Origin: Eutreptiella sp. 'Long Island Sound 2002'
Lineage: Eukaryota > Euglenozoa > Euglenophyceae > Eutreptiales > Eutreptiaceae
Direction of reading: 5' to 3'
Length of the DNA stretch: 64,000 bases
Assembly: GCA_964036045.1 (NCBI GenBank)
Contig: OZ038382.1
Coordinates: 111,808,578-111,872,577, forward strand
Shown here: positions 8,867 through 53,119 of the stretch, piece after piece
Layout: each line of letters starts with the position of its first letter
Position numbering within the stretch: position 1 is the stretch's first letter
Program-made: the position numbers and the translations under genes
The notes under the pieces: model-generated
The model's database searches: none
The model's input: the letters and a program-made list of their open reading frames with translations, nothing else
What the model was told of the DNA's origin: nothing

Positions 8867-8881
8867 CTGTGTTGGGGTGAT

Positions 8882-23888: not shown

Positions 23889-23906
23889 GTAAGTAAGTAA
23901 GTAAGG
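23889..23906 (-). repeat. (TTAC)n 3' tail of E2
   Basis: GTAAGTAAGTAAGTAAG on the plus strand directly abuts the left target-site duplication. It is the 3' end of the minus-strand element. Confidence 0.85.
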
Positions 23907-26900
23907 GCGGCCGCGCCCGCAGCCTCATCTGACACTTCCTTGTTTGTTTTACATGGTGGCCGCCTCTGGCAGGAAGGAGAGCTCTCCACCATCAGTTCTC
24001 CTGGCGACCCCTGTCTCACATCACCGCCGAGAATTTCAACCAGGTTCCCTTGGGGCATGACCGGCGGTAGGTTCCCTTCAGTCGCTGCTCTCACGGTTTC
24101 AGCTTCTTCCGGTCACCCTTTGAAGAATCCCTCAGCCTTCCCCCCCTAGCACAGCCTTTTGGGCGCCTGCGGGCGGGTTTCCTGTGGATAGCCCTCGCCG
24201 AAAGCAGAGCATTTCTCTCTGTCAAGCACATTCCACCACTCCCCTTCCCTCACGGGTTGGAGTACCCACTCGGCTCCTGGATGCACTTGGGTGTCAACCA
24301 TCCACGGCTGGAGGCCAGGGGGCGACCCTTTCCACGTTTCCCCTGGTCCCGCTCACGCGTGAACCCACGTGTACTCAGGCCGTTGACCCAGGGGATCTCA
24401 AGGTCAACCCTCACCCCTGCTGACACCTCAATGGCCGTCCCGGAGTTCAGGGCATTTTCCCGACTTCCTGTGGTCAGGTTCCCCATGGTTAACCCATGGT
24501 TCACCACTCCATGGCAACTGGTTTCACGCTCCCACAGGGCTGTTGCTTGGCGCTTCCGGTCTCCCTGCCCGTCCAACGTCCCATTCCCCTTTGCCACATC
24601 CCGGCACCGGCCCGTTCCCAGCGATCGTGGACTCCCTACCCTGTCGGGCCGTTGTGTGGCCCTAGCCACAAGCCCTTCTCCGTCCCGTCCCCTTTTCCCA
24701 TCATCCCGTGTTTATACCCCACCAGGTCGCCAGCAACTCTGTGGCGCGGGCCCACTGGATCCTCTTCCATCCGGGGACCGTTTCGTGCGCCTAGCACGGG
24801 TCGCTCCCTTCCCGCCCCCGCCCCTCTCCCCTGTGCTGCGGCCCCGGCCTAATCCCCTTGGCTGTTGCGCGGCCCCATCCCATCCCTCATCCCGTGTTTA
24901 TACCCCACCAGGCCGCCAGCAACCCTGTGGCCTGGGCCCACTGGATCCTCATCCATCTGGGGACACTTTTGTGCGCCTAGCACTGGTCGCTCCCCTCCTG
25001 CCCCCGCCCCTCACTCTTGTGCCGCCTCCCATGCTGTCCTAGTCCCCTGGGGCCGTCGCATGGCCCTAGCCACACGCCCTTTTCTGTCCCCTCCCCTTCT
25101 GGTGCTGTGGGGTGTCGTTCGCGTTTTTTCTTTTCGCCGTGTTTTCTTCCGCGTGGTTCCCTCCTCCCTGCATGCATGCACAACAACACTGCATCGCCAT
25201 CTGTCTCGGTTCCGTTTGGTGCTCACGTCCAGTCCCAACGCCATCCTGTGGCGCGGCCCTTGGCAGTCCCCGGCCATGCCAGGTGGGCGCCCATCCCTTG
25301 CGACCCAGTCATTTTTGCCTACGTTGAAGTTAATCTTCTTTCTCTCCTCTCCACCCTCCCCTCCCCTCTGTCTCCTGCCCGCCAACTGAGTGTTGTTCTC
25401 CTGCTCCGTGTGCTCGCCGCTGGTCGTCCCCGCGCCAGGGTTGTATCTCGCGCGCTCTCACACGCCTCAGGGCTTCCGCCCTGTCTTTCGACCTGTAAGC
25501 CGACCTGGGCGGCCTCCCCAGACACCCCTTCAGGGGGACTCCCCCATCGTCCTCCCCCGCCGGCCGCCCCTCCATCAGTTCCCTGATGGTCGGGCGGGGC
25601 GGCCGGTACGGCTCAATGCGGGTCTTCGGTATGGTGTTTCTCTGAGAGAGACATCGTGTTCTTTTGCGCCCTTGTTGGCCCCCGGTTCCCCCTCCTCCCA
25701 CGCCCTGCCTCCTCTACGTGTCCTTCCTGTGTGTCCGCCTGTTCTGCAGTTGTTTTTTTTGTCCCCATATTCGCGCTCTCCGCTGCTGCCGCGCGCCCTG
25801 CGTGTGCCCCTTGCTCTTCTCCCTGCTACCCTTGTCCCGCAGCCCCGCGCCTCCTCACTCGCCCGTCTCCCCTCCCATTCTCCTTCTCGCAGGCGAACCT
25901 GCCTGTACATCTGCCCTCCCTGTCTGAGCCGCGCTGTCACTCGTGTGTGCCACCCTCGTGCCCTACCCCTGCGCCTCTCCGTCGCCCCTACCCTTTTCCC
26001 TGGGGTCTCCCCCACCCTAGTGTTCCCTCTGTCCCCGTCTCTCACCCCATCCTGGTTGCCTTGTGCCCTGTGCGGGGTGGGGGGGGTGTATCTGCGGACT
26101 GGACTGTGGCCCCGCCCGAGGACTGGCATGGCCGTTGGGTTCCTACGCACCATGAGCCACCGCATCTTCCGAAGGAACACACGAGAACGACAGTGAGACA
26201 CTTGTCGAATTCCCTTCGCTGCATTTGCACTGTGGAGCTCAGGCGCAGAGACCAGCTGCGGCGATGCTGTACGGGGCTATTCCAATCGGACCTGAGCCCC
26301 CAGTCGGACCCGGCGTGGTCACCAAAGGCTCACACTCCATTGCACATCGCAGGTGTCCCATGGCGACGACGGCCACCAAGGCCTGGCATGGTCAACCCCT
26401 CAGAGCAGGGCACGCGTAAGTCCAATGTTTTCAATGCAGCACCATCTTGCCTTGCAGAGGGCTTTGCTGCCATGTAGCAAGTCAGCAGATAGCCCACACA
26501 CTCCTGCCGCCAGTCCACAGGGGCACCACCGAGGTGTGTCTCCGCAGCACCGGACTCGAGTACACAAGCGCTGCCACCTGCCCGTCCCAGCAATCTCTCT
26601 GAGGACGCGTTCTGACCGCCATCAGGCAAGACCCTGGCGGCAACGCGTCATAACATTGGATTCGTCTGCCTGTTCGCCTCTCCTGCAAGGCAGAGCCCTG
26701 GCACCGTGCTTCACCCGAAGGGCACAGCGCTGCTCCACGCCATCCCCAGCTGTTCTCGTTGGTCACGACCTTGTGCTCTGCTCTGTCACAGTACCCCTTT
26801 CCATCACTGCATCCCGTCGGCTTCTCGTTCTGCCCCACACTGCTCGCCTTACCAACGATACGTCTCGCGTCCCACTGCCCGGCTGCTCCCTCCGCACCTG

Positions 26901-27010
26901 CCTGCGCCCCCGTACTCCGCCGCCCCATCTTCCCTCCCCCCCGCCGCTGGCCCTGTGCCCTCCGCTTGGGGTTCTCTCTGCGTCCGCCTTCACCACATCC
27001 CCCTCCACCT
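23907..27010 (-). other. 3' region of E2, no gene recognised
   Basis: Strongly C/T-rich on the plus strand (G/A-rich on the element's strand), so long frames are open by composition in several phases. None shows a recognisable motif. A 186-bp tandem duplication lies within it. It may be a long 3' UTR. Confidence 0.4.
24700..25075. repeat. 186-bp tandem duplication in the E2 3' region
   Basis: CATCCCGTGTTTATACCCCA starts at about 24703 and 24889; both are followed by CGCCAGCAAC, GGGCCCACTGGATCCTC and GTGCGCCTAGCAC. Confidence 0.75.
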
Positions 27011-27224
27011 TCAGCCGTGTCCCTGCCCTTCCCTGCGTACATGCACCTCTCCGCTCCCTTTCCCCTTCTCATCGTGTCTGTCACATCCCCCCCTCACCCT
27101 CCTCCACCTCTGCCGACCCCCCGCGTCCGCCTCCCCGCATCCCGTCTGCCCGTCCCTCGGCACGCCCCTGACCCCCGGCCCCTGGCACTTCCCGGTCCTG
27201 CTCCTGCCCTGCCCTACGTGTCGC

Positions 27225-28398
27225 CATGGTACCGCCCCTCCCGCTGCAAAAGCTCTCGCAGCATCTGAACCCTGGGCTTCTTCCCCTTCTCCTGGGGACA
27301 GTCCAGGCTCAGGCCCGGGAGCGCCTCTCACAGCATCCTCCTCCACCGCCCCTTATCCATCTCCGGCCCCTCTTCCCTTGGCCTCCCTGCCCTGCCGACC
27401 AAGTCGCTGAAGGGGCGGGTCCCCCTCTTCTCCCGCCTTCTACTCGTCTTCGCCGCCCACTTCACGTAGCGGACCAGCTCCGCCACCTCCCCCGCTGTCC
27501 ACCCCGCGACTGCCCCGGGTCCCCTCCGCACCGGCGGCGGCGCATACTGCCGCGGCGGCGGCGACTCCGAGTCCCAGTCCGTCGGCGTTGGCTCTGGGCT
27601 GGGGCTGCCCGGCCGCGGCGCCCCCTCCGCCTCCCCTGCCCCTCGCTCCTCCCCCCTGCGCCGCTTCCCCCTTTCCTGCCCCGCCTCTTCCTTCTCCTCC
27701 CTGGCCCTTTTCCCTGACAGCGACCGCCCCTCCACATCCGTGGAGGGGGTGTCACCTTCCGGATCCGGGAGGACCCGGTGGGCCCCCTGGGCCACCGCCT
27801 CCTCCTCCTCCCGCACCCTGCGCTCCCGCGCTGCCACCTCCCTGTCCCTTTCTGCCAGCCTCGCCGCCTCCCCCCTGATCCGCCTCCATGCCCTCTCTCG
27901 CATCTCTCCCTCCTGCTCCGGCTGGATAGCCGGCTGTCGGAACGGCACCAGTAGGGTACCCTCCCGCCCTCTTCCCTCCTCTTGTCGTCCTCCCTCCCGT
28001 TCCGCCCTCTCAACCCCCTCCTGCCTTCTCCGAAGGTCCGCCCACGCCCTCTGCAGCTCCTCCACTGCCTGTGCTTCCCTTCCCTGCGGCCTGTCGGTCC
28101 CTGCTGTCCTCTCCTCCTCCGCCCCGGCAGCCTCACCCTTGACCCTCACCTCCCTCTCCCTCAGGCTCCTCTCCGCCTCCCCTAACCTCTCCCACGCCCT
28201 CCTGTGATCTTCTCCCTTCCCTTCCTGCGCCCCCCACGCTGTCCCACTGGCCTGCGGGCGCTGCTGCACGTGCGCCTGTGGCTGCATGCCCTGGTATGCC
28301 GGCGGGGGCGGGAATGGTGGGACGATTGGTGGGACAGCTGGCGGGACTACACCTCCCCACCATCCCAATCCCTTCCCTGGGAACACCGGCGAGCTCAC
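27225..28398 (-). pseudogene. ORF Z of E2: coiled-coil protein with interrupted W domain
   Basis: A 356-codon frame ends at TGA (27328-27330) but the domain continues beyond it in frame to about 27225. Residues about 75-215 are a charged coiled coil (ERLGEAERSLREREVRVKGE, ERDREVAARERRVREEEEAV). Next come a KR-rich stretch (GKRAREEKEEAGQERGKRRR) and the conserved W-x2-x-E-(V/A)ELVRYVKWAA motif. After the stop the frame reads EALPGLSLDCPQEKGKKPRV and QMLRELLQREG, matching the second half of the domain in E1 and E3. The stop sits where E3 has Arg, consistent with CGA to TGA. The position 3' of pol is the same as in E1 and E3. Confidence 0.6.
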
Positions 28399-30084
28399 GC
28401 ACCCATGGCCACTCCCCCTCCCCTGCTCTTTGCTTTGTCACCCCTCTCCCCTGTGTCCCTTGCCGCCTACTCGTTGGAGTCCCGCCTTCCCTTGTCCCTT
28501 CCCTCGGAGCCCTTCTTACCTCGCACCTTTCACCTGCCTGCCCTTGCCGCCTTCTACTTGTCCCGCACCACTGCCCTGCACCGCTGCACTGCTCTGTTCT
28601 GCCTGCTGTGCCCCCCTCCGCATCCCGGTCCTCCCCGGCTCCATCTCCAACCGGTAGATGGTGTCCGGTCCCTGCTCCGGGGGCTGGCGGCGACAGCACT
28701 GGTGCTCCACGTGCGCCAGCGCCTCGTAACGTGCCGCCTGCTGGCGGCGCACCTCCCTCCCCTCCTCCGCCCTTACTGCCGCACTGAGCTGTGGGGGCGA
28801 CCCCGGCGGTGACTGCCTGAACGAGCGTTGGGGCTGTGGCCACTGTCGCCCCCGTCCACTCCCTTTTCCCCCCTTCCCTGCAAGGTGTCACTTTGCGTGC
28901 ACAGCCCCCGACGTCCCCGCCTGCCCTTTCCCTCCCTTGCCAAACCGCCCTCTCCCTCCAGCGCTTACGCTGCTGTCTCCGCTCCCTGCCGCTCCCGCCT
29001 CTGGCTGCCCTCTCCCGCCCTTGCCTTCCTCATGCCTCGGCACTTCCGGGAGGATCGACTTCATGGCAGCGGCCGGCACATTAGGCGCGGACGGCTGCCC
29101 TGGGCCTCCCTCCACCGCCATCCTCTCGCCCCCTCCCCCTCATCTTCCGTCACCTCGAGGATGTCGGCGACTACCGACTTCCTCCGACCCCTCTACTCCC
29201 TCCTCCTCATATCCACGCCCGCCTTCACATCCGCAATGTTTAATGGGTCCGCCCGTGGCCCTTCCGCCGCCCTTTGCCCCTGCCCCTCCCCTTGCCCCTC
29301 AGCCCCTGCCGCCAACCCCTCTGCCCTGTCCCTCCCCGCCTCTGCCTGTCCTCCCTTGTCCCCTCCCTCTCCCTTCCCAGCAACGGCTCCTTCCCCGCTC
29401 TGCCACCATGCCGCCCCAGGCCCTTCCCTCCTGACCGTCTCCGGGCTCTCCGGAGACGAGGGCGACGACACCTCCGCAGATGTCGCCGAGGACGCCGGCG
29501 CGGGGGGTTGCGGGGCTGCGCCCGGCTGCATGCGGGCGACCTCGGCCCTCACTGCTGGCGGCTGGCTGGGCTTCGGGTCAGGCTTGAGGGAGATTGCGCT
29601 GCACACATGGAATTGCGCCCGAGCCCTGAGCCCTGTCGCCACTTCCTCCACCACCCACGCCCTTTACCCCCTCCGTTTGCGCGCCCTACGTGTGTTGTGC
29701 TCTTGGTACACCGCGGCTCCTCTCCCCCGTCTACTCCCCCGCGTTCTGTGGCCCTTGCCTGGCGGCCGTCGGCCTCGTTCTGGTCCGCACTGCCGTCGTC
29801 CTCGTCCCCGCACCCCCGGCCTCGCTCCTCTTGTCCGCTTGCGTCTCTTGGTACCCACCCCTGCTTCCCGCCCGGCGATCCCCGTGTTCGTGCCCGCTTT
29901 GCTTTCCCCTCGTTACATCACCCCGGTCCGCTCCCCCCTGGCCTGGGTCTTGTTGCGCCCTATGACTCAGTGTGCCCAGTCCCGGACGCTCCAGTCCATG
30001 TGACGGGCGCCACTGCTGCCCCTTTCCCTCCGGTCCCCTTACAGACGTCCCCCTGCGCGGTGACACCGTACACCCGTCCTGCCC
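28399..30084 (-). other. E2 region in the Y position, poorly conserved
   Basis: Several G/A-rich minus frames are open. Fragments with some protein character are VVADILEVTEDEGEGAR (about 29170), DTIYRLEMEPGRTGMRRGAQ (about 28670) and AQFHVCSAISLKPDPKPSQP (about 29600). Their position between pol and Z is that of Y, but no convincing match to E1 or E3 Y could be made. Confidence 0.3.
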
Positions 30085-30552
30085 TCATATCTGCCGGATT
30101 CTCCTTCGTCCGCGTGCCATCAGGTGTTCCCTCTGCTCTTCGCTGCCTCCGTCTTCCACTCCCGTCTCTCCCCCTGACCGCCTTGGTCGCCAATCTGGCT
30201 GCTTCCGCACTTCCATCTCCGTGATTTTTGGGTTGTACCTGATCAACGCCATCTCCACCCTTTTGGTGACCGGATCACCCATGTCTTCCGCCCGTGCCTC
30301 CAACTGCGTCTCTCTGCACGCCATGCGCTCCTGGAGATGCTCCACCATACGCCTCAACAGCCTGTGTGCCATGGCCTCCGGCGCCACCGTGTGTTCCTGG
30401 AGTGCCCGCCACAGCGACTTCACTATCACCATGTGAGGTTTGAGGTTTTGAGGTTTGATTTTGCGGGTACTAGACGCCTTTCGGCCCCGAGGGGCCACCT
30501 GGTCGGGCCAGGTGATATCCCTTCCACCGAGTCCTAGTTGGGGGCCCTCCAA
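30085..30552 (-). pseudogene. second copy of the E2 pol C-terminal segment
   Basis: The minus frame reads VKSLWRALQEHTVAPEAMAH, RLLRRMVEHLQERMACRETQ and TKRVEMALIRYNPKITEMEV. The same segment is the C-terminus of the pol frame at 37386-37640, with a short deletion (ETQLEA missing) there. The two copies flank the satellite array in direct orientation, about 270 bp each. Confidence 0.8.
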
Positions 30553-31097
30553 GACGCACCTCCTGCCTGGTGGCGGAGTCCCCCGGGTTCACAGGGCTCG
30601 GAGCCCCGTCCCTCCCCGGCTTCTCCGTTTCGCCACTCCCCGGTCAGTGCATCAATTCGCAGCCGTGGCTGCGGGCGCTTACCAACTGCGTCGCCCCCCT
30701 AATGCGTGGTCGCCCGGGGCGCCGGTGCCGCTGGGCCCGTGCTACTGGCTTGTCGCCAGTGGGACCCCCTTGGGCTGGCGCGGAGGCTGCCTAGCCTAGG
30801 GGTTGGGGCTTGGCAGGTGCAGTGCCCCGTCCGTGTGTGCGCGGCGCTCGCGGCCGGTTCGGGGGGCTTAGGGCGGTACCTTGTGTTGTGTCTCTCCCGT
30901 TTCCCCCTTCCCGGCCCGCGTGTCCCGCGCTGCGTGTGGCGGGCCGTCCTGTCCGGGTGTCCCTTACCCTCGCTCGCCGGTACGCCATTCCGGGCTGTCT
31001 GTGCGTTCCGCGAGCTCGGTCCGGTTGCCCTTCTGGTAATCCCCGCGTGCTCTTTGCATGTGTGTGCGCTCGCGCTCCTGCGGCGTCCGCTCTCCCC
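30553..31097. other. unique spacer between the pol duplicate and the satellite
   Basis: GC-rich sequence without a motif I could place. Includes GTTTGAGGTTTTGAGGTTTG just before it (30436) and a TTTCGGCCCCGAGGGGCCAC palindromic stretch (about 30478). Confidence 0.35.
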
Positions 31098-34000
31098 CCC
31101 AGCACCGGCCCCACAGCATGCGCCCTTGCGGGCCGGCGTTGCTCGCTGAGGGGGTGGCGGAAGGGCGTCCCCGGGGGGGGTGCCTTCCACCCTTGTGAGG
31201 GGCGTCTGAGGTCAGGCGCTCCCCCTCCCCCGACTGCCCGCCCACTGGGCGGGCTGTTGGGGTCCGCCACCCACGTGCTGTGGGCGCGGGTGTGTTCGTG
31301 TGGGGGCCCAACACTGTTTCCTTGGCCTGCATGCCCTGTAGGGGCTGCGTGCCGCGGGGGTGGTGGGGGGCCGTCCCCGGGGGGGGTGGCCTGCCACCGT
31401 TGTGAGGGGCGTCTGGTGTCACGCGCTGTCCCTCCCCCCGCCACCTGTCCTCTGGGGCGGGCAGCCGGGGTTCCGCGACCCGTGTGTCCCAGGTGCGGTC
31501 GCTGCAGGCGTGGGGACCCAGCACCGTCCCCACAGTGTGTGCCCTTGCGGGCCGGCGTTGCTCGCTGTGGGGGTGGCGGAAGGGCGTCAACCAGGGGGGG
31601 TGCCTTCCACCTTTCTGAGGGGCGTCTGAGGTCAGGCGCTCCGCCTCCCCCGACTGCCCGCCCACTGGGCGGGTTGTTGGGGTCCGTCACCCGCATGCTG
31701 CGGGCGTGGGCGTGTGGGTGTGGGGGCCCATCACTGTCCCCTTGGCCTGCAAGCCCTGTGGGGGCTGCATGCCGCGGGGGTGGTGGGGGGCTGTCCCCGG
31801 GGGGGGTGTCCTGCCACCGTTGTGAGGGGCGTCTGGTGTCAGGCGCTGTCCCTCCTCCGGTCCCCCGTCCTCTTGGCCGGGCGGCGGGGGTTTCGCGACC
31901 CGTGTGTCACGGGTGCGGTCGGTGCGGGCGTGGGACTCAGCACCAGCTCCACAGCGTGCGCCCTTGCGGGCCGGCGTTGCTCGCTGTGGGAGTGGCGGAA
32001 TGGCGTCCTCGCGGGGGGTGCCGTCCACCGTCATGAGGGGCGTCTGAGGTCAGGCGCTCCCCCTCCCCCGACTGCACGCGCACCGGGCGGGTTGTTGGGG
32101 CCCGTCACCTGCGTGCTGCGGGCGCGGGCGTGTGGGTGTGGAGGCCCATCACTGTCTACTTGGCCTGCAAGCCCTGTGGGGGCTGCGTGCCGCGGGGCTG
32201 GTGGGGGGCCGTCCCCGGGGGGGGGTGGCCCGCCACTGTTGTGAGGGGCGTCTGGTGTCAGGCGCTGTCCCTCCCCCGGCCGCCCGTCCTCTGGGCCGGG
32301 CAGCCGGGGTCCCGCGACCCGTGTCTCCCGGGTGCGGTCGCTGCAGGCGTGGGGACCCAGCACCGGCCCCACAGTGTGCGCCCTTGCGGGCCGGCGTTGC
32401 TCGCTGTGGGGGTGGCGGAAGGGCGTCAACCGGGGGGGTGCCTACCACCTTTGTGAGGGGCGTCTGAGGTCAGGCGCGCCCCCTCCCCCGACTGCCCGCC
32501 CACTGGGCGGGCTGTTGGGTTCCGCCACCCACGTGCTGTGGGCGCAGGTGCGTGGATGTGGGGGCCCAACACTGTCCCCTTGGCCTGCATGCCCTGTGGG
32601 GGCTGCATGCCGCGGGGGTGGTGGGGGCCTGTCCCCGGGGGGGGTGGCCTGCCACCGTTGTGAGGGGCGTCTGGTGTCAGGCGCTGTCCCTCCCCCGTCC
32701 GCCCGTCCTCTGGGGCGGGCAGCCGGGGTTCCGCGACCCGTGTGTCCCGGGTGCGGTCGGTGCGGGCGTGGGGACCCAGCACCGGCCCCACAGCGTGCGC
32801 CCTTGCAGGCCGGCGTTGCTCGCTGTGGGAGTGGCGGAATGGCGTCCTCGCGGGGGGTGCCTTCCACAATCATGAGGGGCGTCTGAGGTCAGGCGCTCCG
32901 CCGCCCCCGACTGCCCGCCCACTGGGCGGGCTGTTGGGGTCCGTCACCCGCATGCTGCGGGCGCGGGCGTGTGGGTGTGGGGGCCCATCACTGTCCCCTT
33001 GGCCTGCAAGCCCTGTGGGGGCTGCGTGCCGCGGGGGTGGTGGGAGGCCGTCCCTGGGGGGGGGTGGCCCGCCAGCGTTGTGAGGGGCGTCTGGTGTCAG
33101 GCGCTGTCCCTCCTCCGGCCGCCCGTCCTCTTGGCCGGGCGGCCGGGGTTCCGCGACCCGTGTGTCCCGGGTGCGGTCGGTGCGGGCGTGGGACTCAGCA
33201 CCGGCTCCACAGCGTGCGCCCTTGCGGGCCGGCGTTGCTCGCTGTGGGAGTGGCGGAAGAGCGTCCTCGCGGGGGGTGCCGTCCACCGTCATGAGGGGCG
33301 TCTGAGGTCAGGCGCCCCCCCTCCCCCGACTGCACGCGCACTGGGCGGGTTGTTGGGGTCCGTCACCTGCGTGCTGCGGGCGCGGGCGTGTGGGTGTGGA
33401 GGCCCATCACTGTCTACTTGGCCTGCAAGCCCTGTGGGGGCTGCGTGCCGCGGGTCTGGTGGGGGGCCGTCACCGGGGGGGGTTGGCCCGCCACTGTTGT
33501 GAGGGGCATCTGGTGTCAGGCACTGTCCCTCCCCCGGCCGCCCGTCCTCTGGGCCGGGCAGCCGGGGGTCCGCGACCCGTGTGTCCCGGGTGCGGTCGGT
33601 GCGGGCATGGGACTCAGCACCGGCTCCACAGCCTGCGCCCTTGCAGGCCGGCGTTGCTCGCTGTGGGGGTGGCGGAAGGGCGTTCCCGGGGGGGTGCAAT
33701 CCACCGTTGTGAGGGGCGTCTGTGGTCAGGCGCTCCCCCTCCCCGAACTGCCCGCCCACTTGGCGGGCTGTTGGAGTCCGCCACCCACGTGCTCTGGGCG
33801 CGGGCGTGTGGGTGTGGGGGCCCAACACTGTCCCCTTGGCCTGCATGCCCTGTGGGGGCTGCGTGCCGCGGGGCTGGCCTGCCACCGTTGTGAGGGGCGT
33901 CTGGTGCCAGGCGCTGTCCCTCCCCCGGCCGCCCGTCCTCTGGGGCGGGCAGCCGGGGTTCCGCGACCCGTGTATCCCGGGTGCGGTCGGTGCGGGCGTG

Positions 34001-37000: not shown

Positions 37001-37384
37001 GGAAGGGCATCCCTCGGGGGGGTGCCTTCCACCGTTGTGAGGGGCGTCTGAGGTCAGGCGCTCCCCCTCCCCCGACTGCCCGCCCACTGGGCGGGCTGTT
37101 GGGGTCCGCCACCCACGTGCTGTGGGCACAGGTGTGTGGGTGTGGGGGCCAAACACTGTCCCCTTGGCCTGCATGCCCTGTGAGGGCTGCGTGCCGTGGG
37201 GTTGGTGGGGGGCCGTCCCCGGGGGGGGGGGCCTGCCACCGTTGTGAGGGGCGTCTGGTGTCAGGCGCTGTCCCTCCCCCAGCTGCCCGTCCTCACGGGC
37301 GGTCAGCCGGGGTTCCGCGACCCGTGTGTCCCGGGTGCGGACGATGCGGGCGTGGGGACCAGCACCGGCCCCACAGCGTGCTCC
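31098..37384. repeat. satellite array of ~420-bp dimeric units, about 15 copies
   Basis: GTGAGGGGCGTCTGAGGTCA marks unit starts at about 31195, 31617, 32035, 32455, 32873, 33294, 33715, 34105, 34527, 34946, 35365, 35780, 36197, 36619 and 37038: spacing 415-422 except one of 390. Each unit is two related ~210-bp halves, both beginning CCACCGTTGTGAGGGGCGTC, the first going on as TGAGGTCAGGCGCTCC, the second as TGGTGTCAGGCGCTGT. The first half holds a GCCCGCCC-ACT-GGGCGGGC hairpin. Because 420 is a multiple of three, long frames run through on both strands, including a 737-codon plus frame; I do not regard these as genes. Confidence 0.9.
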
Positions 37385-40210: not shown

Positions 40211-40223
40211 CATGATTAGGCCA
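40211..40223 (+). repeat. target-site duplication of E2, right copy
   Basis: CATGATTAGGCCA, identical to 23876-23888. Confidence 0.9.
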
Positions 40224-41146: not shown

Positions 41147-41395
41147 GGTTTGTGTCGTCAGTTTGAGTCGATGTTGTGCACAAAGCATAGTTTGATTATT
41201 TGTTATCGGTTGAAGCATCATCCGTCATGCATCCATTGCATTCATGCATGTGTCTCATTTTTCATACGTTGCGTAGCAGATTGATCTAGATAATACTTAT
41301 GGAAGCATTGCATTGTAGGATAGCATAACATTGAGTGATGAGTGTATTCATACGATTGCCTTCTTCTTGTTTCTTAGACACTATGCCGTGGTGAG
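41147..41395 (+). repeat. dispersed repeat U, copy gamma
   Basis: Matches 15030-15285 from GGTTTGTGTCGTCAGTT to CTTAGACACTATGCCG(T/C)GGTGA. Confidence 0.8.
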
Positions 41396-41598: not shown

Positions 41599-41610
41599 TG
41601 TTTTAGGTAA
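41599..41610 (+). repeat. target-site duplication of E3, left copy
   Basis: TGTTTTAGGTAA, identical to 53108-53119; neighbouring bases differ on both sides. Confidence 0.88.
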
Positions 41611-41625
41611 GGTAGGTAGGTAGGT
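41611..41625 (-). repeat. (CCTA)n 3' tail of E3
   Basis: GGTAGGTAGGTAGGT on the plus strand directly next to the left target-site duplication. Confidence 0.8.
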
Positions 41626-44290: not shown

Positions 44291-44293
44291 CTG

Positions 44294-45100
44294 TCACCTT
44301 GGGCGCTTCCGTGCCCCCTTGCCGGAGTGTCCCTCTCTGCCCCTTGGCCCCCCCCTGCCCGTGTCCTTTCCCTTCCCGGTGTGGTGGTGCTGGGGTGGGG
44401 GGGGGGCGCCAATGGCCCAGGCCTGGGGGTGGGTGTCCTCGAGCCATTGGCGGAGGGTTCGGGGGGTGTAGGGGGGGCGGAGGCCCTGGACCGCGTCCCG
44501 GAGGAGGGCCTCCCATGCCGCCTGCGGCATGATGGCCTCCGGGACGGCCTTGTTGGGGTCAGCGGGGTCTCGCCTTCCCGCTCCCCTGGCCCACTTCACC
44601 CAGCAGCGGAGCTCCTGCAAAGCAGGGGCAGACCACCAGGCGAGGTGGGCGGGGGCCTGGGGGGGGAAGGGGTCCGAGCTTGAGGTCCTGGAGTGGTGGG
44701 AGGAGGACGTGGACATGCGGCGGTGGCGGGCATGGAGGCGCCTGGGGGAGCGGGAGCGGCGGTGGCGGGGGATCGGGGTGGAGGACGGGTACCTGCAACG
44801 GGGGGAGCAGAAAGCCCAGGGGGGTGTGTCGGGGGAGGGGGTGGTGGACATGGGGCGGCGGTGGTGTGCTTGGGGGCGCCTGGGGGAGCGGGAGCGGCGG
44901 TGGCAGGGACTGGGGGGGGGTCGCGTACGGTCGGAGGGGGAACAGGAAGCCCGGTGGGGCTCGTGGGGAGAGGGGGTGGTTGACATGGGGCGGCGGTGGC
45001 GCGCGTGCTGGCGCCTGGGGGAGCGGGAGCGGCGGGAGCAGGGCCCTGGGTGGTCATGGTGGCGCCTCCGGGAGCGGGAGCGGCGCGAGTGAGTGGTTGA
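44294..45100 (-). CDS. ORF Z of E3: SR-type repeats plus conserved W domain
   Basis: The frame is open upstream of its first ATG (44986) to beyond 45100. Three to four repeats of about 43 residues carry (H/S)RRSRSPRR followed by HARHRRPMSTTPSP. The C-terminal domain then reads LAWWSAPALQELRCWVKWAR, IMPQAAWEALLRDAVQGLRP and a final HHHTGKGKD. The domain matches E1 and E2 Z; the SR repeats are unique to this copy among the three. SR-like tracts usually bind RNA or phospho-dependent partners, so an RNA-binding gag-like role is a reasonable inference. It is one of the few E3 frames without stops. Confidence 0.55.
   Translation of the reverse strand, partial: STTHSRRSRSRRRHHDHPGPCSRRSRSPRRQHARHRRPMSTTPSPHEPHRASCSPSDRTRPPPSPCHRRSRSPRRPQAHHRRPMSTTPSPDTPPWAFCSPRCRYPSSTPIPRHRRSRSPRRLHARHRRMSTSSSHHSRTSSSDPFPPQAPAHLAWWSAPALQELRCWVKWARGAGRRDPADPNKAVPEAIMPQAAWEALLRDAVQGLRPPYTPRTLRQWLEDTHPQAWAIGAPPPPQHHHTGKGKDTGRGGPRGREGHSGKGARKRPR
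44735..45095 (-). repeat. ~125-bp tandem repeats encoding SR motifs
   Basis: GGCGCCTGGGGGAGCGGGAG occurs at about 44746, 44876 and 45010, with a variant at 45063. On the minus strand it codes for RRSRSPRR. Confidence 0.75.
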
Positions 45101-45413
45101 GGGGCGGTCGCGGTGTGGGGAGCGTCAGCACCGGGGGTGGGTGGGCCGTGCGGGGGGGGAGCGGGAGCGCCGCCGTTTGCGGGACCGGGCCTTGTTGCTC
45201 GGGTCGAGCCAGTCAGAAGTTGTCGGCCGGTCCTGGGGGGCCTCGCGCGGCGCCGACTTGTACTTGGGGGGGGGGGGGGGTCACCCGCTCTCCACTGATC
45301 CGCCGCGTAGGGGTGCGACGGCGGCAGTGGCTGATGGTACGGGTAGAGTGACTGTCCCTGGTGGGGTTGGGCCCGGGGGGCACCTTCGGCGTGGACGATG
45401 TCGCCGGGGGGAT

Positions 45414-45765
45414 TCAGTGCCTGGTACGGGGGGGTGGCCCCTGGTGGTAGGTGGGGTATGGGGGTGGAGCGCCTGGTGGCTGCCAACCCACGCGCTTGTG
45501 CTGCTCGTGCACGGGGGGTTCTGGCCCGGTGGGGTAGGATGGTGGGCAGTGGTAGTGGTGGGGGTGGTGTTGGTGGTGATGGTGGTGGGGCCGCTGGTGC
45601 AGGTGGCGCTGGTAGTGGTGGGGACCCCTTTGTAGATATTCCTGTCGCCCTGTTGGGGGTGGGGGGTCGAGCATCGTGTGTAGTGCCTGGGGCCGTACTG
45701 TTTGGTGGGCGGCGGGGGCGGGTCGGGGGCCGGGCTTCACAGTGATTGTGGTCGAGGGGTCCCAA
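45414..45765 (-). other. His/Pro-rich low-complexity stretch of E3
   Basis: (GGTGGT)-type DNA codes for a poly-His/Gln run on the minus strand (HQRPHHHHHQHHPHH). It sits between Y and the SR repeats of Z; no other motif. Confidence 0.4.
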
Positions 45766-46267
45766 GTCCCTTTGTCGGTCTGGCCGGCGGCGGTGGGCGG
45801 TTGTGGGGGATGGATGACGGGACGCTTGGAGATCGGGATGTTGACGAGGGTTTGGACGGGGTCGTGTTGGGTGGCCGCCTCCGTGGTGGCGGCGGCCGCT
45901 GAGGGGAGGGGGGCGTGGGTTGTGGTTGCTGGGGGGTCCTTGCTTGGGTGAGGGTTCGGTTTAGGGCGGTGTCGCTTTGGTTTGTGTCGTTGCGTTTGTG
46001 GTGTTGTGGGCTGCGTGGCGTGGTGTTTGTGGTGGTGCTGTTGCTGGTGGTGCGCTCGTTTGGGTGCCGGCTTGGGTTTGGGGACGGGCCTTGGTTTGGA
46101 GTCCGGTTCGAGGTTGAGGAGGACCTCGGTCCGGAGGTGCGTGGGCGCCGATGCTGGGTGGGGGAGTTTCCCGGTGTGCTGCAGGGGTGCCTGGGTTTCT
46201 TTTTGGTGGTTGGAGGGTCCCCGGTAGTCTGGCCTGCGGTCGCAGCTTTGGCTTTTGCCGTGGCCTT

Positions 46268-48293
46268 TCAGATGAGGTCGGCGGGGAGGAGGGGGTCAGT
46301 AGCTGATGTGGAGGACGTCGATGAGGCTGAGGACGAGGCGGAGGTGGTGGTTTTGGGGGACGCGGGTTGCGCTGTGATGCGGGCGCTCGCGGGTTTGTGG
46401 GGGCCAGCTTCTGCTGCTGCCACGGCGCAGAGGATGGAGGGCATGTCCTTAGGCTGTAGGTTGGGGATGGGTGGCTGGGGGGGCCCGGCCGTGCCCTGGC
46501 GGCCCGGCGGGCCGATCTGGTTGGGAGCGGTAGGGGAGGGAGGCGCGGGGCTGTGGTCGTCTCCTTCTGGGCTTGGCTTGGCCGGGGTCCTGCAATGTGT
46601 GAGGCTGTGTGGGTTGGCGTCCGCGGGGGGGACCAGTTCGCGCGGGCTGCATTCGGGGGCCGGGAGAGGTGGGCCTGGGTTTTCTGTGGTGTGCGCGGGG
46701 GGCGTGTGCGGACCACTGGGCAGGGTGGGCGTGCTGCGGGGCGTGGCTCTCCATTCGGTGGGTGTGTGGGGGTTTTCGAGTGCCGGGGGTGCTGAGGGGT
46801 GTAAGGCGGGTGGGACCGTGGCGGGCGTGTGCTGTTGTTTGGGCGGGTGGGGGAGGCCCGTGTCGCGGGGCCCGGGGGTGCGCGCGAACGTGGGCGTGTG
46901 TGGGTCTCCGGGTGGGCAGCGAGAGGGGAGGGACATGGGCGGAGATTGCCCGGTGGGGTGTGTTGTGTCGGTGTATGTGTTCGCTCGCAGCAGCGCGCTT
47001 GCGTGGTTACTTGTAGGCCGGGCGGTTTGGAGGAGAAGCATGCCGTCTTCTGCTGCAGCGGCAAGGAATTTGCAGACGAGCTTGCGTATTTGGTGGACCA
47101 CTTGGTCAGTGGTGGGAAGGCAATATGCTAGCTCTGGGCTAAGACCCACGCGGCTGAGGACCCTGTTGATGGCGTGGTACCCGCCAGTGAGGGAGTGCTG
47201 TGGTCTGGTGGGGGTTTTGCCGCGTGTCCGGGCCATCGTCGATTTGTGTGTGGGCGCTGGGGATGGCCAAAACTCAGGGCACGGTCCCCGTGGATGGCCA
47301 GCGGCGCTGGATCCAATTGGTCAGGCAGAGCATGGCCAGTCTGAGGTGGTAACCTGCTTGCGCTGAGGTGATTTGGGCCAGGGCGCCAGCTGGGGGCTTG
47401 TCTCCTGTCTGGAGGACGCCCTTGAGGACCCTTTGCGGGGTCCTGGGGTCCCCTACTGCCCCTGGTCAGCCGGTCCCTGGGGTAAGCATGGTGTCTGTCT
47501 CTTTGACGAGCCATTGCGGGACAAGGGACGTAGCTGTAGCGGCCACTACGTAGTAGTGCCCGCGCTCGAGGACTGTACACCAGACCTCCGGCAGGGGGTG
47601 GTCACTGTCTGTAGGTGGGGGAGGGAGGTCGTCGTCTGCGGTGCGGAGGCCAGCAGCGCGGAGGGCGGTGTCGCGGGTTGGTGCGGTGGCCTGTTCTTAT
47701 TGCTCCGGGTGGTTCGGGTCCGCTGGGTGGTCCTTCTCAGCTGGGGCTCATTGTAGGCGTATGGTCCCTCGACGTGTGACGTTGGTGCTGGTGTCGTGTA
47801 TCAGGGGCTGGCCCCACTCGAGGGGGGGGATCCACACGTGCTGGCCCTCGGTGTGTTTGCGGGCTCGCCAGAGGACGAGGTCTGCTATGGCCTCGTGGAG
47901 GCCGTTGCCTGGGGTGGTCAGGTCCCGGAGGGCTTTGGCGGTGAGCTTGGTCTAGTCCCCTTGTAGGCGGTACCAGCCCAGGGGAGTGCTCAGGGCCCTG
48001 CCTTGGAGGGCTGCTCGGAGGAGGTCGGAGTCGCGGATGGTGGTCGGTGTGAGGGGGGGGTGCCCCGGGTCCGGGGGTGGCGGGCTCGGTTGGTTGCCGG
48101 GGTCCTGCGCGTCCACCTGGACGTATGGTTGGGCCTGGTTGGGCTCGGCGGGGCTTGGCGGTGTCGGGCGGCTTCGTGGGTGAGAGGTGGACTTTGGGGT
48201 GCTTTGGTGGTGTCTTGGAGGCCTGCGGATGGAGATGGAGGGCGTGTGCGGGGTGCGGAGTGGGTTAGTGGACGTCTGGGTCATGCACGGCAT
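46268..48293 (-). pseudogene. ORF Y of E3, broken by stops and frameshifts
   Basis: The first part (about 48050-47760) reads LLRAALQGRALSTPLGWYRL, a TAG, then LTAKALRDLTTPGNGLHEAI and HVWIPPLEWGQPLIHDTSTN, matching E1 Y around WVPPIDWGRHL. A second part (about 47570-47300) reads LERGHYYVVAATATSLVPQW, a TGA, and AGYHLRLAMLCLTNWIQRRW, then TGA. A third part (47236-46990) reads GGYHAINRVLSRVGLSPELA and VHQIRKLVCKFLAAAAEDGM. The rest is serine/proline-rich. Placed directly 3' of pol; X is missing. Confidence 0.6.
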
Positions 48294-51066
48294 GGTAATG
48301 GATGAGACGCTGCATGTGTTCCCTGGTAGTGGGGTCGGTGAGCTGTTCCGTGTGTGTTAACAGGAGGTGTTTGCGGTGTACCATTTAGGCCGCTCCTCTG
48401 CAGACTGCTTCCAGCTGGAGGTGCGCTGCTGCCTCCATGGGGCTTTTTGTGTGGTTGGCGAGGTGTCGCTGTAGGGCCTGTGTCACCGCTCCTCTCATGG
48501 TGGCTTCCTAGACGTGGGGATCCCTGAAGAGGTGTTCAGTGGCTTGGTGTGCCTGGCTGTGGGTTGGCTAGCCTTCGTGTTGTCGTAGGGTTTCTGCCGG
48601 GGACCAGCGCACTAGCGTGTCCCTGCCTGTATGGGGGGGGCATTTGTTGAAGTGTTCCCAATCCTCCGGGGTGGTGTGGTCGCACGGGCAATGGGTGTGT
48701 TCTTCCGGGACGTGGATGTGCTTGCGGACGAGCCATCTGGCGACCATGGTGAGCAATGGTAGTTGCTCCCTCAGGAGCTGGATGCGTCGTTTTTGGGGGT
48801 GGGCCGGGACTTGTGCTGGGCGCAGTGCTGAGTGGTAGACGGGGATTTGCAGTTTCCCCTGGAGCTCCTGGATGTGTGCCCGGCTGTCCGTGTCGCCGAG
48901 CACGCGGGCGAGATGTTGAATGGGGTTGGGGTAGTGGTATGCTCTGTCGTGGGAAGAATAGGGGGCGTCCTCTGGTACCCAGTCCGGGGTCTGACGGGGC
49001 TCCGGTCTGGAGGGTTTGTGTTGGAGATGTGTGTGGTTTCGCCAAGATTGGGCACCTGGAGGGTTGACAAGTGCGTTCTGCGCTGGTGTACTGCCTGGTT
49101 GTCGACCTTACCATTTCCGTATTGGTGCCTGTGGGACTCCTGTTTCATGATGCGGAGTTGGACGTAGGGGGGAAGGCTGCAAAGAGCCTTCCAGAGCAGC
49201 AGTGCCTGGGTGCCGAGGCTCCTCGCGGTGGCTTTGTGGAGTGGTTGCCTTGCTATGCGGAGGAGCAGGTGTGTGACGACGGTGGCGTCTACCACGAACC
49301 AGACCCGGACGATGTGCGGGAGGTGGGCGGGTAGGTGGGCCGCGATTTCGGCGATGGCGTCCGCCATGGCCCCCAGCCCCCCGTGGGAGGAGGCCCTGTA
49401 GGTGGTGTGGCCCGTGTGGTGGTCCATGTGGTAGTGTCCCCCGGTGTGGGTTAGCTGCAAGGTGGCCCCCCCGGTGATGGGCGTGAGGGCGGACTCGCCT
49501 GAGGCGTCGGTAAAGAAGAGCCGGTCCACCGGTGATGGTTGTTGGAGGCGGCATGGGTTTATGCGCAGGTAGGCGTATATGGCGAGGCCCATGGTGAGGT
49601 GGGCCACCGGGGTTGTGGGCTGCAGGACGGGGGTGGCGTACACCCCTATTCCTTTGGAGATGATCTGTTTCCCTTTGGGGGTCATGGCTATGAGTCCCTG
49701 TTCCGGCTGTCCTTGTGTGAGGTAGGAGTAGATGTAGTGGAGGATGTAGGCTGTGTCTGGGTTTGGGTCGTGGCATGTGAGGGTTTGTGTTCGGTGCTCC
49801 GGTGTGTGGCAGGAGTGGTGGAGCGGATAGTAGGAGTGCTCGTGCTTGCCCGTTCTGCCTGGTTGGTACATGCTGTAACGGATGGCGACCCCTGCTGGGT
49901 CGGGGCGGGGCCAGGTGGGCATAGTGGTGAAGAGACATAGGGGTGTGTGGTCGGGGTTCCACGCTACCCCGGGGTTCGCGTCGGTGCGGTCGAATCATGG
50001 GGCTACCCATGCGTAGGCTTATGGTTGTAGGTGGGTTGTGGGGTGGATGTGGTGGCGTGCTATGAGGTGCAATACGGGCCATGGCGTGGTGGGTGACTCG
50101 GGGTCACAGGCCCAACATGTGCGGCGCATGCTCTGGGAGCCATGTGGGACCTTTCGTAGGTCTTGGGCGGCCATGTGGTGCTTCGGTATGCGCCATTTTG
50201 CCCCGTGGTGGATGACGGTGGTCTGCGTGGGTTTGGCTTCATTCGGGGCCAATAGTAGGGTTAGTGGTGGGACTTGGCCCGTCACCGGGGGGACGGGTTT
50301 GTGTTCCGAGCCGGTGGGTGCGTAGGGCGGTGTCACTGGGATGGGTCGGGGGTGCTGCTTTTTGAAGTCCAGGTAGGCTGCTCACATGTCCGTGCTTCCT
50401 GGCAGAGTGTCCCCCACTGCTCGTGCCGTCTGCGTGAGGTACTGGTGGAAGAGGCGGTATTGCGGCCATTCAGGAACTTGTAGGAAGGGGGTGTGGTGTG
50501 CTCCGCTGTGGTGAAGGACCCGCATTTGTGAGAGGGTGACGTATACTACGGTGATGGAGTCCCCGACAAGCTCTATGGTGTTGATGGTGCCCTTGGGGTG
50601 ATGGTGCGGGTGCCCGCCGAAAACCGCCAGAGGCCCTTCGTCCCGGCACGTGTGGTTGGTGAGTATGGCGTGGTGTGGGGATGGGAGGAGAAGCTGCAGG
50701 TGGTTCCACAGGCGCTTGTTCATGTCGGCAGGTAATGCCCGTCTGGTGGAGTATCCAGCGTGGGGATTTGTTGCGGGCCTGTTGTGCGGCTTGGAGGCCG
50801 ATTGTGGCGACCTGGCGGACCTCCGGCGAGTGGTTGTGGGTCATGCGGTGAAGGACGAGGGCGTTGTGTCTGGTGTAGGCCGCTTTCACCTCGTCCCCTA
50901 TGGCGTCCCAATTGTGGGGCCATGCCGCCCGGATGGCGCGGGTCGGTATGGAGGTGGGCCGGTTCCCGTGTGCTGCCCATGCCTTGGTGACGGCGCGTGT
51001 GGTCGGTTGGAGGGCGGTGGTGGGGTGTGTCAGGTGGAGTGCCTGGAAGCCTATGGAGGCGTTCAA
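48294..51066 (-). pseudogene. pol middle and C-terminal part of E3: thumb, CCHH finger, RNase H, zinc finger
   Basis: The thumb reads YLTGVLNASIGFQALHLTHP after a TAG, then HNHSPEVRQVATIGLQAAQQ. The linker finger is CWACDPESPTTPWPVLHLIARHH (C-x2-C-x12-H-x4-H). RNase H: D in FTDASGESAL, E in SHGGLGAMAD is replaced by Gly, D in FVVDATVVT, H/D in ESHRHQYGNGKVDN. So the second catalytic acid is missing. The zinc motif is CPCDHTTPEDWEHFNKC. Stops interrupt at sites where E1 has Trp, Gln or Leu (for example P-TGA-F against PWF at about 50000). RNase H and the zinc finger are in different frames. Confidence 0.75.
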
Positions 51067-51081
51067 GACCCCGGTGAGGTA

Positions 51082-52686
51082 CTACGCCAGACTCTGGTGG
51101 GACAGGGAGAGGGCCTTGGTGGTCGGGGACGCATATCTGGGGAGATGGGCGAGGTGTGACTGCAACGTGGGAGGGAGCGTGGCGTCCTCAGGGTTGGTGG
51201 CCTGGATTACCCCCAGGTGGGTGGTGGTTGTCACGACTTTCAGTCCTTGTGGCCCCAGGGTGGGGGGCGTGGCAGACCCCTTGATCATGGCCACTGACTT
51301 TATTGGGGGGACGATGGGGTTGTTGCGGGAGAGGTAGGAGATGGTCACATCCAGTAAGGTGCTGGCCTGCTGGGTGACCGTTGGCCCGGGGTCTGGGGTG
51401 TTGGGTTCGTGTGGGCCGTGTGCAACCGTGAGGTTGGTGTCGTCCGCGAAGCCCACCAGGGGGGAGAGGAGGGGGTAGGGTGCGTAGGCCGGGTAATCCT
51501 GCTCGACTGTGAGGGCCAGGGGGAGCGTCAGGAGGAGGTACAGCAAGGGGCCCTCTGCTCCTCCTTGAAGGACCCCGCTGCCTGGCTCCAGGAAGGGGGT
51601 GGGGCCTGCTCCAGTGCGGACCGTGTACTTGCGGGTGCGGATGTAGCCGGAGGCGAAGTTGTAGAAGTGGAGGCCCAGGCGTTTCCACACCGCTCCCAGA
51701 AGGAGCCAGGGGGTGTTCGGGAAGGCTCCCTTGACGTCGAGGAAGGCGATGATGAGGTCTACCGGGTCCCTGTCGTCGATGGTGTCCTGGAGGAGGATGG
51801 CCTCATGTGGGGACCGGCCTGGGATGGCCCCCCAGAGGCTGGCGGGTAAGTGGGGGTCAGGTTGGGGGCGGATGCGGCGTAGGAGGACGGTCCAGACGAT
51901 TTTGACCTCCGTGACTGCACAGACTATGGGGTGCCAGTTGTCCGGGTTGGCCCAGTCCCCCTTTTTGTAGAGGGGGCGGACAGCGTTTGGCCAGTCTGGT
52001 GGTAGGGGGGTTTGCCCCCTGACGATGTCCCAGAGGCGGTGGGCGAGGATGCAGAGGAGGTGGGCGGGGAGGTGGTAGTATGCCTCTGCAGGGAGGCCGT
52101 CGTAGCCTGGGGTTTTGTGTTGCCGGAGACTGTGGATGGCCCTCCGGATTTCGTGGATTGTGAAGGGGCGCTTTTCAAGTTGCCTCCTCTGGGCGTGGTT
52201 GAAGAGCTGAGTGAGGCGGTCAATTTTGGCCTGGGTGTCCGTGTCCAGTGTGTCTCTGGTGGGCGTGTGTTGTTGGAAGAAGCTGTCTTGGGTGGCCTGG
52301 AGCACGGTGGCGGGGTCGTTGCTCAGGGAGCCGTCCTCCTGTCTGACCGTGGTGATGGTGCAGTGGCCGGTGTCGGTCATGGCGTCGTTGAGGTGGCGGA
52401 TGGCCTTGTAGAAGAGTTCATGTTGCGCATACCGTTCGTGTTCTTGGGCGATTCGCTGTTTCCTGTGGATGTGCCACTGCTGCAGGTCTGCCCTGATGTG
52501 GGCTATCTGCGTCCTGCAGTGGTGGATGTGTTGGCTCCTTCGGGGGGTGTCGTTGTGGAGGAGGGTCGCCAGTTGTTGCTTTGCATGCCAGAGGTCATGG
52601 AGCATGTCCTCTAGGGCCGTGGGTGGTCCGTCAACGTCGGTGTGGGGATGTTGCTGGAAGCCGCGGGCGACGGTGGCCGTGCGCAT
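51082..52686 (-). CDS. reverse transcriptase domain of E3
   Basis: A 534-codon frame. The N-terminal 120 residues are the helical linker after the endonuclease. RT motifs in order: RPLYKKGDWANPDNWHPI (about 235-252), motif A IAFLDVKGAFPN with the first catalytic Asp (about 311-322), motif B GVLQGGAEGPLLY (about 370-382), motif C VGFADDTNLTV with the catalytic Asp pair (about 408-418), and HLGV after it. The PGYDGLPAE motif of LINE RTs is present at about 190. Upstream, HDKQA-TGA separates it from the endonuclease. The palm itself has no stop. It would copy element RNA at the nicked target. Confidence 0.92.
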   Translation of the reverse strand: MRTATVARGFQQHPHTDVDGPPTALEDMLHDLWHAKQQLATLLHNDTPRRSQHIHHCRTQIAHIRADLQQWHIHRKQRIAQEHERYAQHELFYKAIRHLNDAMTDTGHCTITTVRQEDGSLSNDPATVLQATQDSFFQQHTPTRDTLDTDTQAKIDRLTQLFNHAQRRQLEKRPFTIHEIRRAIHSLRQHKTPGYDGLPAEAYYHLPAHLLCILAHRLWDIVRGQTPLPPDWPNAVRPLYKKGDWANPDNWHPIVCAVTEVKIVWTVLLRRIRPQPDPHLPASLWGAIPGRSPHEAILLQDTIDDRDPVDLIIAFLDVKGAFPNTPWLLLGAVWKRLGLHFYNFASGYIRTRKYTVRTGAGPTPFLEPGSGVLQGGAEGPLLYLLLTLPLALTVEQDYPAYAPYPLLSPLVGFADDTNLTVAHGPHEPNTPDPGPTVTQQASTLLDVTISYLSRNNPIVPPIKSVAMIKGSATPPTLGPQGLKVVTTTTHLGVIQATNPEDATLPPTLQSHLAHLPRYASPTTKALSLSHQSLA

Positions 52687-52734
52687 GGCTGTGAGTAGGT
52701 CGGTGGGGACCGGTTGGATGCGCCGGGCGCGGTC

Positions 52735-53107
52735 TATGGCCCTGTGATATTGGGATCAGGCCTGTTTGTCGTGCAGTGAAGGCATCTGCAGGGAGGGTGG
52801 TACGCCCTGGTCCGCATCCTCTGGGGTGCTGGGGGGAAGGTTGGGGATGGTGAGGCGGATGTGCAGGAAGCTATGGCCTGTGGGTCCCAGCGAGAGGGGC
52901 CCATATCGGGCCTCCGCCTAGATGATGGTGGTGGGGTCGCCATAGCATAAGTCGATGCGGGAGGGGGCGGCATCTGCTTGGTGGGAGAGGTGGGATGGTT
53001 GGCCTCCGAGGTTGGCCGTCAGGTCCACGAGCAACAGCATTTCGATGGTGTCGCGGACTGCATGGTTCTGGGGTGTGGCCTGTCCCCCTCGGTCCGCCAG
53101 GGTGGGG
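52735..53107 (-). pseudogene. C-terminal fragment of an AP-like endonuclease of E3
   Basis: Minus frame: HPTLADRGGQATPQNHAVRD, LGGQPSHLSHQADAAPSRID, LCYGDPTTII, a TAG, then ARYGPLSLGPTGHSFLHIRL. The SRID-LCYGDP and TGHSFLHI strings are in the places of the conserved S-R-I-D-x-(I/V) and (S)DH motifs that end exonuclease/endonuclease/phosphatase domains; here the D of DH is G. The N-terminal catalytic part is missing because the element is truncated at 53107. Confidence 0.65.
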
Positions 53108-53119
53108 TGTTTTAGGTAA
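53108..53119 (+). repeat. target-site duplication of E3, right copy
   Basis: TGTTTTAGGTAA, identical to 41599-41610. Confidence 0.88.

Follow-up and report, generated by a model that had tools for sequence, protein, structure and literature searches.

The window analysed here is a 64,000-nucleotide stretch of the 2.28-Gb genome of Eutreptiella sp. 'Long Island Sound 2002' (contig OZ038382.1, positions 111,808,578 to 111,872,577). It contains three retrotransposon copies on the minus strand, E1, E2 and E3, each with a pol open reading frame (ORF) or its remnant followed by further regions from a set termed X, Y and Z, in E2 a probable Z (Table 1). By its reverse transcriptase (RT), endonuclease, target-site duplications (TSDs), truncation and tail, the element is a long interspersed nuclear element (LINE). 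Read along the minus strand, pol is followed by Y and then Z in E3; E1 has the same order, with X placed between pol and Y. E1 (~715–9,669) lies outside the interval 23889..53107 in which an earlier note, made from the sequence alone, described a LINE family with pol as its first ORF. By piece, the pol proteins of E1 and E3 are 37–51% identical, and that of E2 is 26–33% identical to both.

Table 1. LINE copies and their domains in the 64-kb window
Feature	Position	Strand	Basis
E3, 5'-truncated LINE copy, 11.5 kb, 3' tail (TACC)n	41611..53107	-	exact 12-bp TSD; homology to full-length copy
E3 endonuclease, C-terminal remnant (APE-type)	52756..53107	-	P0147 match from TSD edge; PF03372 in relatives P0134, P0136, P0150, L019
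E3 reverse transcriptase	51082..52755	-	RVT_1 E=9.2e-9
E3 pol C-terminal part: probable RNase H and CxC..H..C zinc finger	48265..49994	-	pol stop 48265-48267
E3 Y domain of ORF3, decayed	47295..47975	-	profile E=2.4e-7; Smith–Waterman (SW) score 166
E3 Z domain of ORF3	44345..44770	-	
E2, 5'-truncated LINE copy of 16.3 kb (satellite array counted in), 3' (TTAC)n tail	23889..40210	-	exact 13-bp TSD
E2 pol remnant: RT end, probable RNase H, zinc finger	37381..40210	-	25-28% identity to P0147, P0002, P0134 over 738-996 amino acids (aa)
E2 419-bp tandem array, 15 copies, inside element after pol	31098..37385	-	
E2 probable Z domain	27180..27501	-	SW 68 to E3 Z, 56 to E1 Z
E1, LINE copy from a different subfamily, 5' truncation near RT end	715..9669	-	ends approximate; no TSD
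E1 pol remnant	6617..9669	-	stop TGA 6617-6619 overlapping an ATG (ATGA)
E1 X domain (CPLC...CPHC)	5612..6451	-	62-68% identity to P0026 and P0131
E1 Y domain	3154..4161	-	stop-free genome matches; pN/pS 0.47
E1 Z domain, ORF after Y	1811..2206	-	

Exact TSDs flank both E2 and E3, as had been observed previously. The 13-bp duplication of E2 (CATGATTAGGCCA) lies at 23876–23888 and 40211–40223, and the 12-bp duplication of E3 (TGTTTTAGGTAA) at 41599–41610 and 53108–53119, in each case beside a tetranucleotide tail. Among random pairs of 50-bp windows spaced 9–17 kb apart, a common 12 bp was found in 1/3,000 pairs and a common 13 bp in 0/3,000. No TSD was detectable at the ends of E1. Homology between E3 and the related protein P0147 begins at the TSD edge, inside the endonuclease, while the pol homology of E2 begins at its TSD edge past the RT core, and E1 starts near the RT end. 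E1, E2 and E3 are all 5'-truncated inside pol, and the identity of the first ORF therefore cannot be read from these three copies.

Elsewhere in the genome, loci L027 and L029 are likewise 5'-truncated, with 15-bp TSDs each, and several distinct 5' ends occur among the ten copies compared below. The flanks shared by individual copies measure 12, 13, 15, 15 and 17 bp, and the tails are (ACCT)n; a convincing TSD was absent in three of the six copies tested, including L011 (7 bp only) and L015. In their variable 5' truncation, variable-length TSDs, short-repeat tails and lack of long terminal repeats (LTRs), these copies conform to LINEs. Around position 7564 of L029, a copy appears to have been inserted, with a 15-bp TSD, into pol of a second member of this family.

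The pol product combines an endonuclease of the apurinic/apyrimidinic (APE) type with an RT. RVT_1 was matched in E3 (E = 9.2e-9) and also in P0134, P0147, P0136 and P0150, and PF03372 scored above its cut-off in P0134, P0136, P0150 and L019, no such match being reported for P0147. The nearest LINE RTs in the PDB were L1 ORF2p (E = 1e-8) and then R2 (E = 0.35). An RNase H after the RT is probable: its D-E-D-D acidic residues are conserved in all four pol pieces compared, and one of the four matched PF00075 weakly (E = 0.0074); a PDB search with this region returned no relevant match. The CxC..H..C zinc finger is a motif recognised by eye. Past the RT, Pfam gave no significant match, although it may hold no model of a restriction-like endonuclease. 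In a genome search with the E3 RT, 76 of the 78 best-scoring matches among 15,974 first-look candidates were stop-free, and a 1,782-aa open pol frame surrounded 50 of these 78, one of them with a TAG within the match. In a set of 170 proteins, pol ends at one and the same point in 22 E1-type and 8 E3-type proteins; the coding region that follows it, ORF3, is therefore a separate ORF.

The gene order of the intact element was read from ten plus-strand copies of the E3 type, for which 9.5 kb of upstream sequence each and two further stretches were compared. Nine of the ten are ~97–99% identical over their longest pieces, with single pieces at 94–96%, and the C27 copy (L011/L012) is 73–94% identical by piece to the other nine. 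Homology continues to the upstream edge of the 9.5 kb in L013, L017, L019, L021 and L025. The C2 and C3 copies share one 5' end (TCCCATATTT.TTCCTCCATA). C2 measures 25,102 bp and is flanked by a 17-bp repeat, of which up to seven edge bases perhaps belong to the tail or the element; C3 measures 24,548 bp, and no TSD was found around it. E3 aligns piecewise with the C3 copy from one end of E3 to the other at 76–91% identity, leaving unmatched two stretches of the 3' untranslated region (UTR) and one stretch outside the sequence compared.

These copies have the order 5' UTR, ORF1, UGA-CGG, pol, ORF3, 3' UTR, (ACCT)n. The 5' UTR spans ~8.7 kb and contains a 157-bp tandem array of 11.8 copies, and the 3' UTR occupies 2.5–2.9 kb ahead of the (ACCT)n. 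ORF1, whose product counted from the Met has 1,295 aa, lies directly before pol in the same frame; counted from stop to stop this frame has 1,411 aa, and it is intact in three of the seven copies that reach the ORF1 start (L019, L023 and L025). ORF3 encodes 1,362–1,368 aa from an ATG that overlaps the last pol codons in 10/10 copies, and it is open in five of them. Its position after pol is the same in all ten. The mapping of full-length copies, which the earlier note had suggested, bore out a large ORF downstream of pol but placed ORF1 ahead of pol in the E3 type. Searched by sequence profiles only, ORF1 and ORF3 gave a best Pfam hit of E = 0.28, unrelated, and nothing better than E = 0.7 in the PDB.

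Y and Z reside within ORF3 in the E3 type. In the ORF3 of L014, Y was located at residues 148–382 (E = 3.4e-18) by a profile free of E3-type sequences, and Z at 1200–1349 (E = 3.4e-21) by a profile built with the Z of E3 among its sequences. A Y profile built without E3 matched one of the six E3 frames (E = 2.4e-7; next-best frame 0.16), and the pairwise SW score of 166 between the Y of E1 and that of E3 was equalled in 0/500 shuffles. Identities by codon position between the two (0.45/0.54/0.36) are highest at position 2 and lowest at position 3, as in pol, and the compared stretch of E3 contains five in-frame stops. Among the 116 best-scoring genome matches to the E1-type Y, out of 11,732 candidates, 107 were stop-free.

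Evidence for Z is more graded. Pairwise SW scores were 88 for E1–E3 (0/2,000 shuffles as good; blastp E = 0.017), 68 for E3–E2 (0/2,000) and 56 for E1–E2 (1/2,000). Because unrelated frames score up to SW 61, the presence of Z in E2 is only probable. A Z profile from E1-type sequences alone missed the Z of E3 and gave a marginal hit on the intact E3-type ORF3 (best independent E-value 0.13) at the right place, where the pairwise SW score to the Z of E1 was 84 (0/2,000 shuffles). The conservation claimed previously is thus found for Y in E1 and E3 and for Z in the same two copies, with E2 remaining probable. X found no match in E3 or in the E3-type ORF3. In the E1 type, a stop follows Y in 8/8 loci (L033–L040) and Z is then in a separate ORF. 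The Y stop is TAA at seven of these loci and TGA at one, and in L034, L037 and L039 the Z ORF begins directly behind it in the same frame.

No match to X, Y, Z, ORF1 or ORF3 exceeded a curated cut-off in Pfam, where the earlier note had proposed a profile search of Y and Z. Rfam gave no match at gathering scores, one scan of viral contigs revealed no relative, and an AlphaFold model of Y was unusable (mean pLDDT 35).

Comparison of copies reveals which of these frames are constrained. The ratio of nonsynonymous to synonymous polymorphism (pN/pS) was 0.57 for ORF1 in frame versus 1.07 and 1.43 in the other frames (seven copies), and 0.47 for the E1-type Y versus 1.06 and 1.44 (eight copies). 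The whole of ORF3 gave 0.84 versus 1.02 and 0.95 (eight copies), and its first 400 codons, which include Y, gave 0.49 versus 1.08 and 1.29. The mean ratio of nonsynonymous to synonymous substitution rates (dN/dS) was 0.41 among three intact ORF1s and 0.85 among five intact ORF3s. ORF1 and Y are under purifying selection, a statement that does not extend to the rest of ORF3. A conserved frame of ~650 aa in the 5' UTR, considered as a candidate 'ORF0', had an in-frame pN/pS of 1.05, and a coding role for it is unsupported.

The same gene order recurs in relatives on other contigs. Of the 170 proteins, 157 carry pol. Matches to what lies downstream of pol in E1 or E3 occur in 22, and none matches the downstream region of E2. 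Nine carry both pol and a downstream match, with pol first in eight, seven of which match the downstream region of E1 and one (P0085) that of E3. Within the E1 group, pol runs on into X in frame in P0026; the sequence behind pol is matched in another frame in P0011, P0013, P0015, P0028 and P0035; and P0036 matches the linker behind X. Furthermore, P0131 reads X then Y, and P0130 reads Y then Z. The ninth protein, P0082, joins an E3-type 3' end and its tail to a truncated E1-type pol, as produced by insertion beside another copy. Upstream of pol, the E1-type protein P0139 carries a homologue of ORF1 residues 853–1084 ahead of the endonuclease (34% identity over 244 aa, E = 7e-32), a shorter and shifted piece of ORF1 is present in P0169 (blastp E = 2e-8), and in P0140 the end of ORF1 is joined to pol.

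At the junction between ORF1 and pol, TGA precedes CGGGGCAAGGGCC at 11/11 sites, with at least one site in each of the 10/10 upstream loci. The N-terminal strand of the endonuclease (VNLLDLNHPAVTYS) is encoded between this UGA and the first in-frame ATG of pol, in the frame of ORF1. In PMC11166343, UGA-CGG is described as the type II readthrough signal of viruses, and the E3-type junction has the sequence context of that signal. The 60 nt from the stop have a fold z-score of -2.6 in L013, although the stem begins 4 nt past the stop, and the 100 nt from the stop have z-scores of -2.8 in L013 and -1.4 in L019. In the E1-type proteins P0139 and P0169, the peptide PDG[T/A]RAG, in another frame, would fit cCTGACGGGGc at the junction, and P0140 has W-R at the ORF1–pol join, as if from TGG-CGG; both nucleotide readings are deduced from amino acids. 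An enzyme started at the first in-frame ATG would lack the N-terminal strand of its endonuclease, which argues for an ORF1–pol fusion made by readthrough. Readthrough is the most likely route to pol and is favoured with some confidence.

Taken alone, E1–E3 have nothing ahead of pol, and from this appearance pol was initially taken to be the first ORF, with Y and Z (and X) downstream standing in for ORF1. That reading is now very unlikely, since all three copies are 5'-truncated, full-length E3-type copies carry the 1,295-aa ORF1 immediately before pol in the same frame, and P0139 has its homologue in the E1 type; it is refuted for the E3 type and, on protein evidence, for the E1 type. Of the order RT, RNase H, zinc finger, Y, Z that accompanied it, pol followed by Y and then Z stands, the RNase H is probable, and the leading position of the RT is a product of truncation. 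It is still less credible that pol and Z come from neighbouring head-to-tail elements joined by chance inside the TSDs, an arrangement that the earlier note had set against its own proposal. P0082 is one such junction, and L029 sits within another pol; however, the interval separating pol from Z contains no CCTA or CTTA tail-like repeat of at least three units in either E2 or E3, the pol–ORF3 order is constant in the E3-type copies, and the 17-bp repeat encloses one whole copy. Tandems of this kind do not explain E2 and E3, and the idea is refuted for the E3 type. The downstream ORFs belong to the element, as was claimed: Y and Z lie in one ORF3, a near-complete copy is enclosed by the 17-bp repeat, and the order recurs on other contigs.

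It could also be argued that the downstream frames are long through composition only and form a GC-rich, functionless 3' UTR, as these skewed sequences have long open frames in all frames and the whole-ORF3 pN/pS is 0.84. This is improbable, given that conservation of Y between subfamilies with ~45% pol identity is confined to a single frame, that pN/pS falls to 0.47 and 0.49 in the E1-type Y and the first 400 codons of ORF3 against 1.06–1.44 in other frames, and that the best-scoring Y matches are overwhelmingly stop-free (107/116). A closer competitor keeps the same anatomy but has ribosomes reinitiate at the start of pol itself, or read pol off a spliced RNA. Gene calls in ENA do start at an internal ATG (MAQGPG or MPGPHP), and SART1 and L1 are LINEs for which reinitiation is described in PMC5972666. 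Against this, the N-terminus of the endonuclease is encoded ahead of the internal ATG, behind the UGA and in the frame of ORF1, and the UGA is kept at every site; this route is regarded as unlikely, without being negligible.

It is proposed instead that E1–E3 are 5'-truncated copies of a giant, ~25-kb, three-ORF APE-type LINE family, a scheme that is likely to be correct. Its foundation in anatomy, truncation, TSDs, many near-identical copies and purifying selection on ORF1 and Y is demonstrated. In this scheme, pol would be made as an ORF1–pol fusion through readthrough of UGA-CGG, and ORF3 by termination–reinitiation at the ATG overlapping the end of pol. That overlap, and the ATGA of E1, suit reinitiation by analogy with SART1 and L1, where, according to PMC5972666, the downstream ORF is translated in this way. 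ORF3 may be a ribonucleoprotein (RNP) or accessory protein added to ORF1 rather than a displaced ORF1; a part in RNA binding or RNP work is a guess. Mobility would proceed by target-primed reverse transcription, in which the endonuclease would nick the target and the RT would begin at the tail of the RNA and copy it; where copying ends early, a 5'-truncated element would be left between TSDs.

Two-ORF APE-type LINEs (L1, I, CR1, Jockey and related elements) resemble this family in their APE endonuclease, RT, TSDs, 5' truncation and an ORF1 before pol. LINEs are usually compact, 4–8 kb long with one or two ORFs, whereas the family here reaches ~25 kb, has a third large ORF and a 1,295-aa ORF1 that lacks a Pfam match, and has a UGA separating an ORF1 and a pol that share one frame. 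The two-ORF plan, with no ORF after pol, is broken by the 1,362–1,368 aa of ORF3. The known ORF1 types (RRM plus CCHC, L1 trimer and esterase) are unmatched by this ORF1, as judged by sequence profiles only. RNase H is found in the LINE clades I, R1, Tad1, Loa and others. Dualen/RandI elements of green algae have a large LINE pol with RNase H and, C-terminally, a second endonuclease of the restriction-like kind; nothing of that sort was recognised here, though a fitting model is perhaps absent from Pfam.

In SART1 and human LINE-1, the start of the downstream ORF overlaps or closely follows the end of the preceding ORF, as it does here (PMC5972666); the overlap here joins pol and ORF3, whereas the ORF1–pol junction resembles readthrough. 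Among bdelloids, retroelements that carry additional ORF3s, and Terminons of up to 40 kb, are similarly large and have extra ORFs beside pol (PMC5408684). The same paper presents them as LTR and Penelope-like Athena elements, with ORF3s that are esterases, DEDDy exonucleases, env-like proteins and others, whereas the ORF3 described here matches no Pfam family. In the open-access literature, no description of an element such as this one was found.

Several other repeats lie in or around the copies. The 419-bp array of E2 is bordered by duplicates of the pol 3' end, 96–97% identical, at 30159–30435 and 37381–37636, and weak similarity to E2-array-like repeats adjoins pol in P0073 and P0027. Positions 551–703 and 60506–62256 of the window share a 65-bp minisatellite; the 3' end of E1 adjoins the former, and P0106 joins pol to that minisatellite. 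Stretches of (AGGT)n or (TAGG)n at 15283, 54405 and 59933 resemble the E3 tail and are perhaps 3' ends of other copies. Diverged inverted copies of another repeat are present at 15286–16721 and 40463–41195, beside the 5' flank of E2, and 132 bp are directly repeated at 40225 and 41141. An 11-bp repeat (CGTCAGGATGG type) forms arrays at 13379–14995 and 57694–58146, on opposite strands.

The earlier suggestion of an undescribed LINE lineage can be extended, at evenly balanced confidence, to a separate lineage with a 25-kb three-ORF genome and a plan resembling gag, pol and accessory genes without being a virus. Such a lineage would use UGA-CGG readthrough and ORF3 reinitiation, would have its X, Y and Z modules shuffled among subfamilies and needed for mobility, and would comprise at least two divergent subfamilies, highly repeated in the 2.28-Gb genome. 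The case also cautions that 5'-truncated copies mislead on ORF order. A recently amplified 25-kb LINE is a test of the RNA length that target-primed reverse transcription can copy, and finding a third ORF behind pol leads one to ask which functions, other than those of ORF1 and pol, a LINE requires. The conserved UGA-CGG, finally, would give LINEs a control of product ratio like that of gag and pol.

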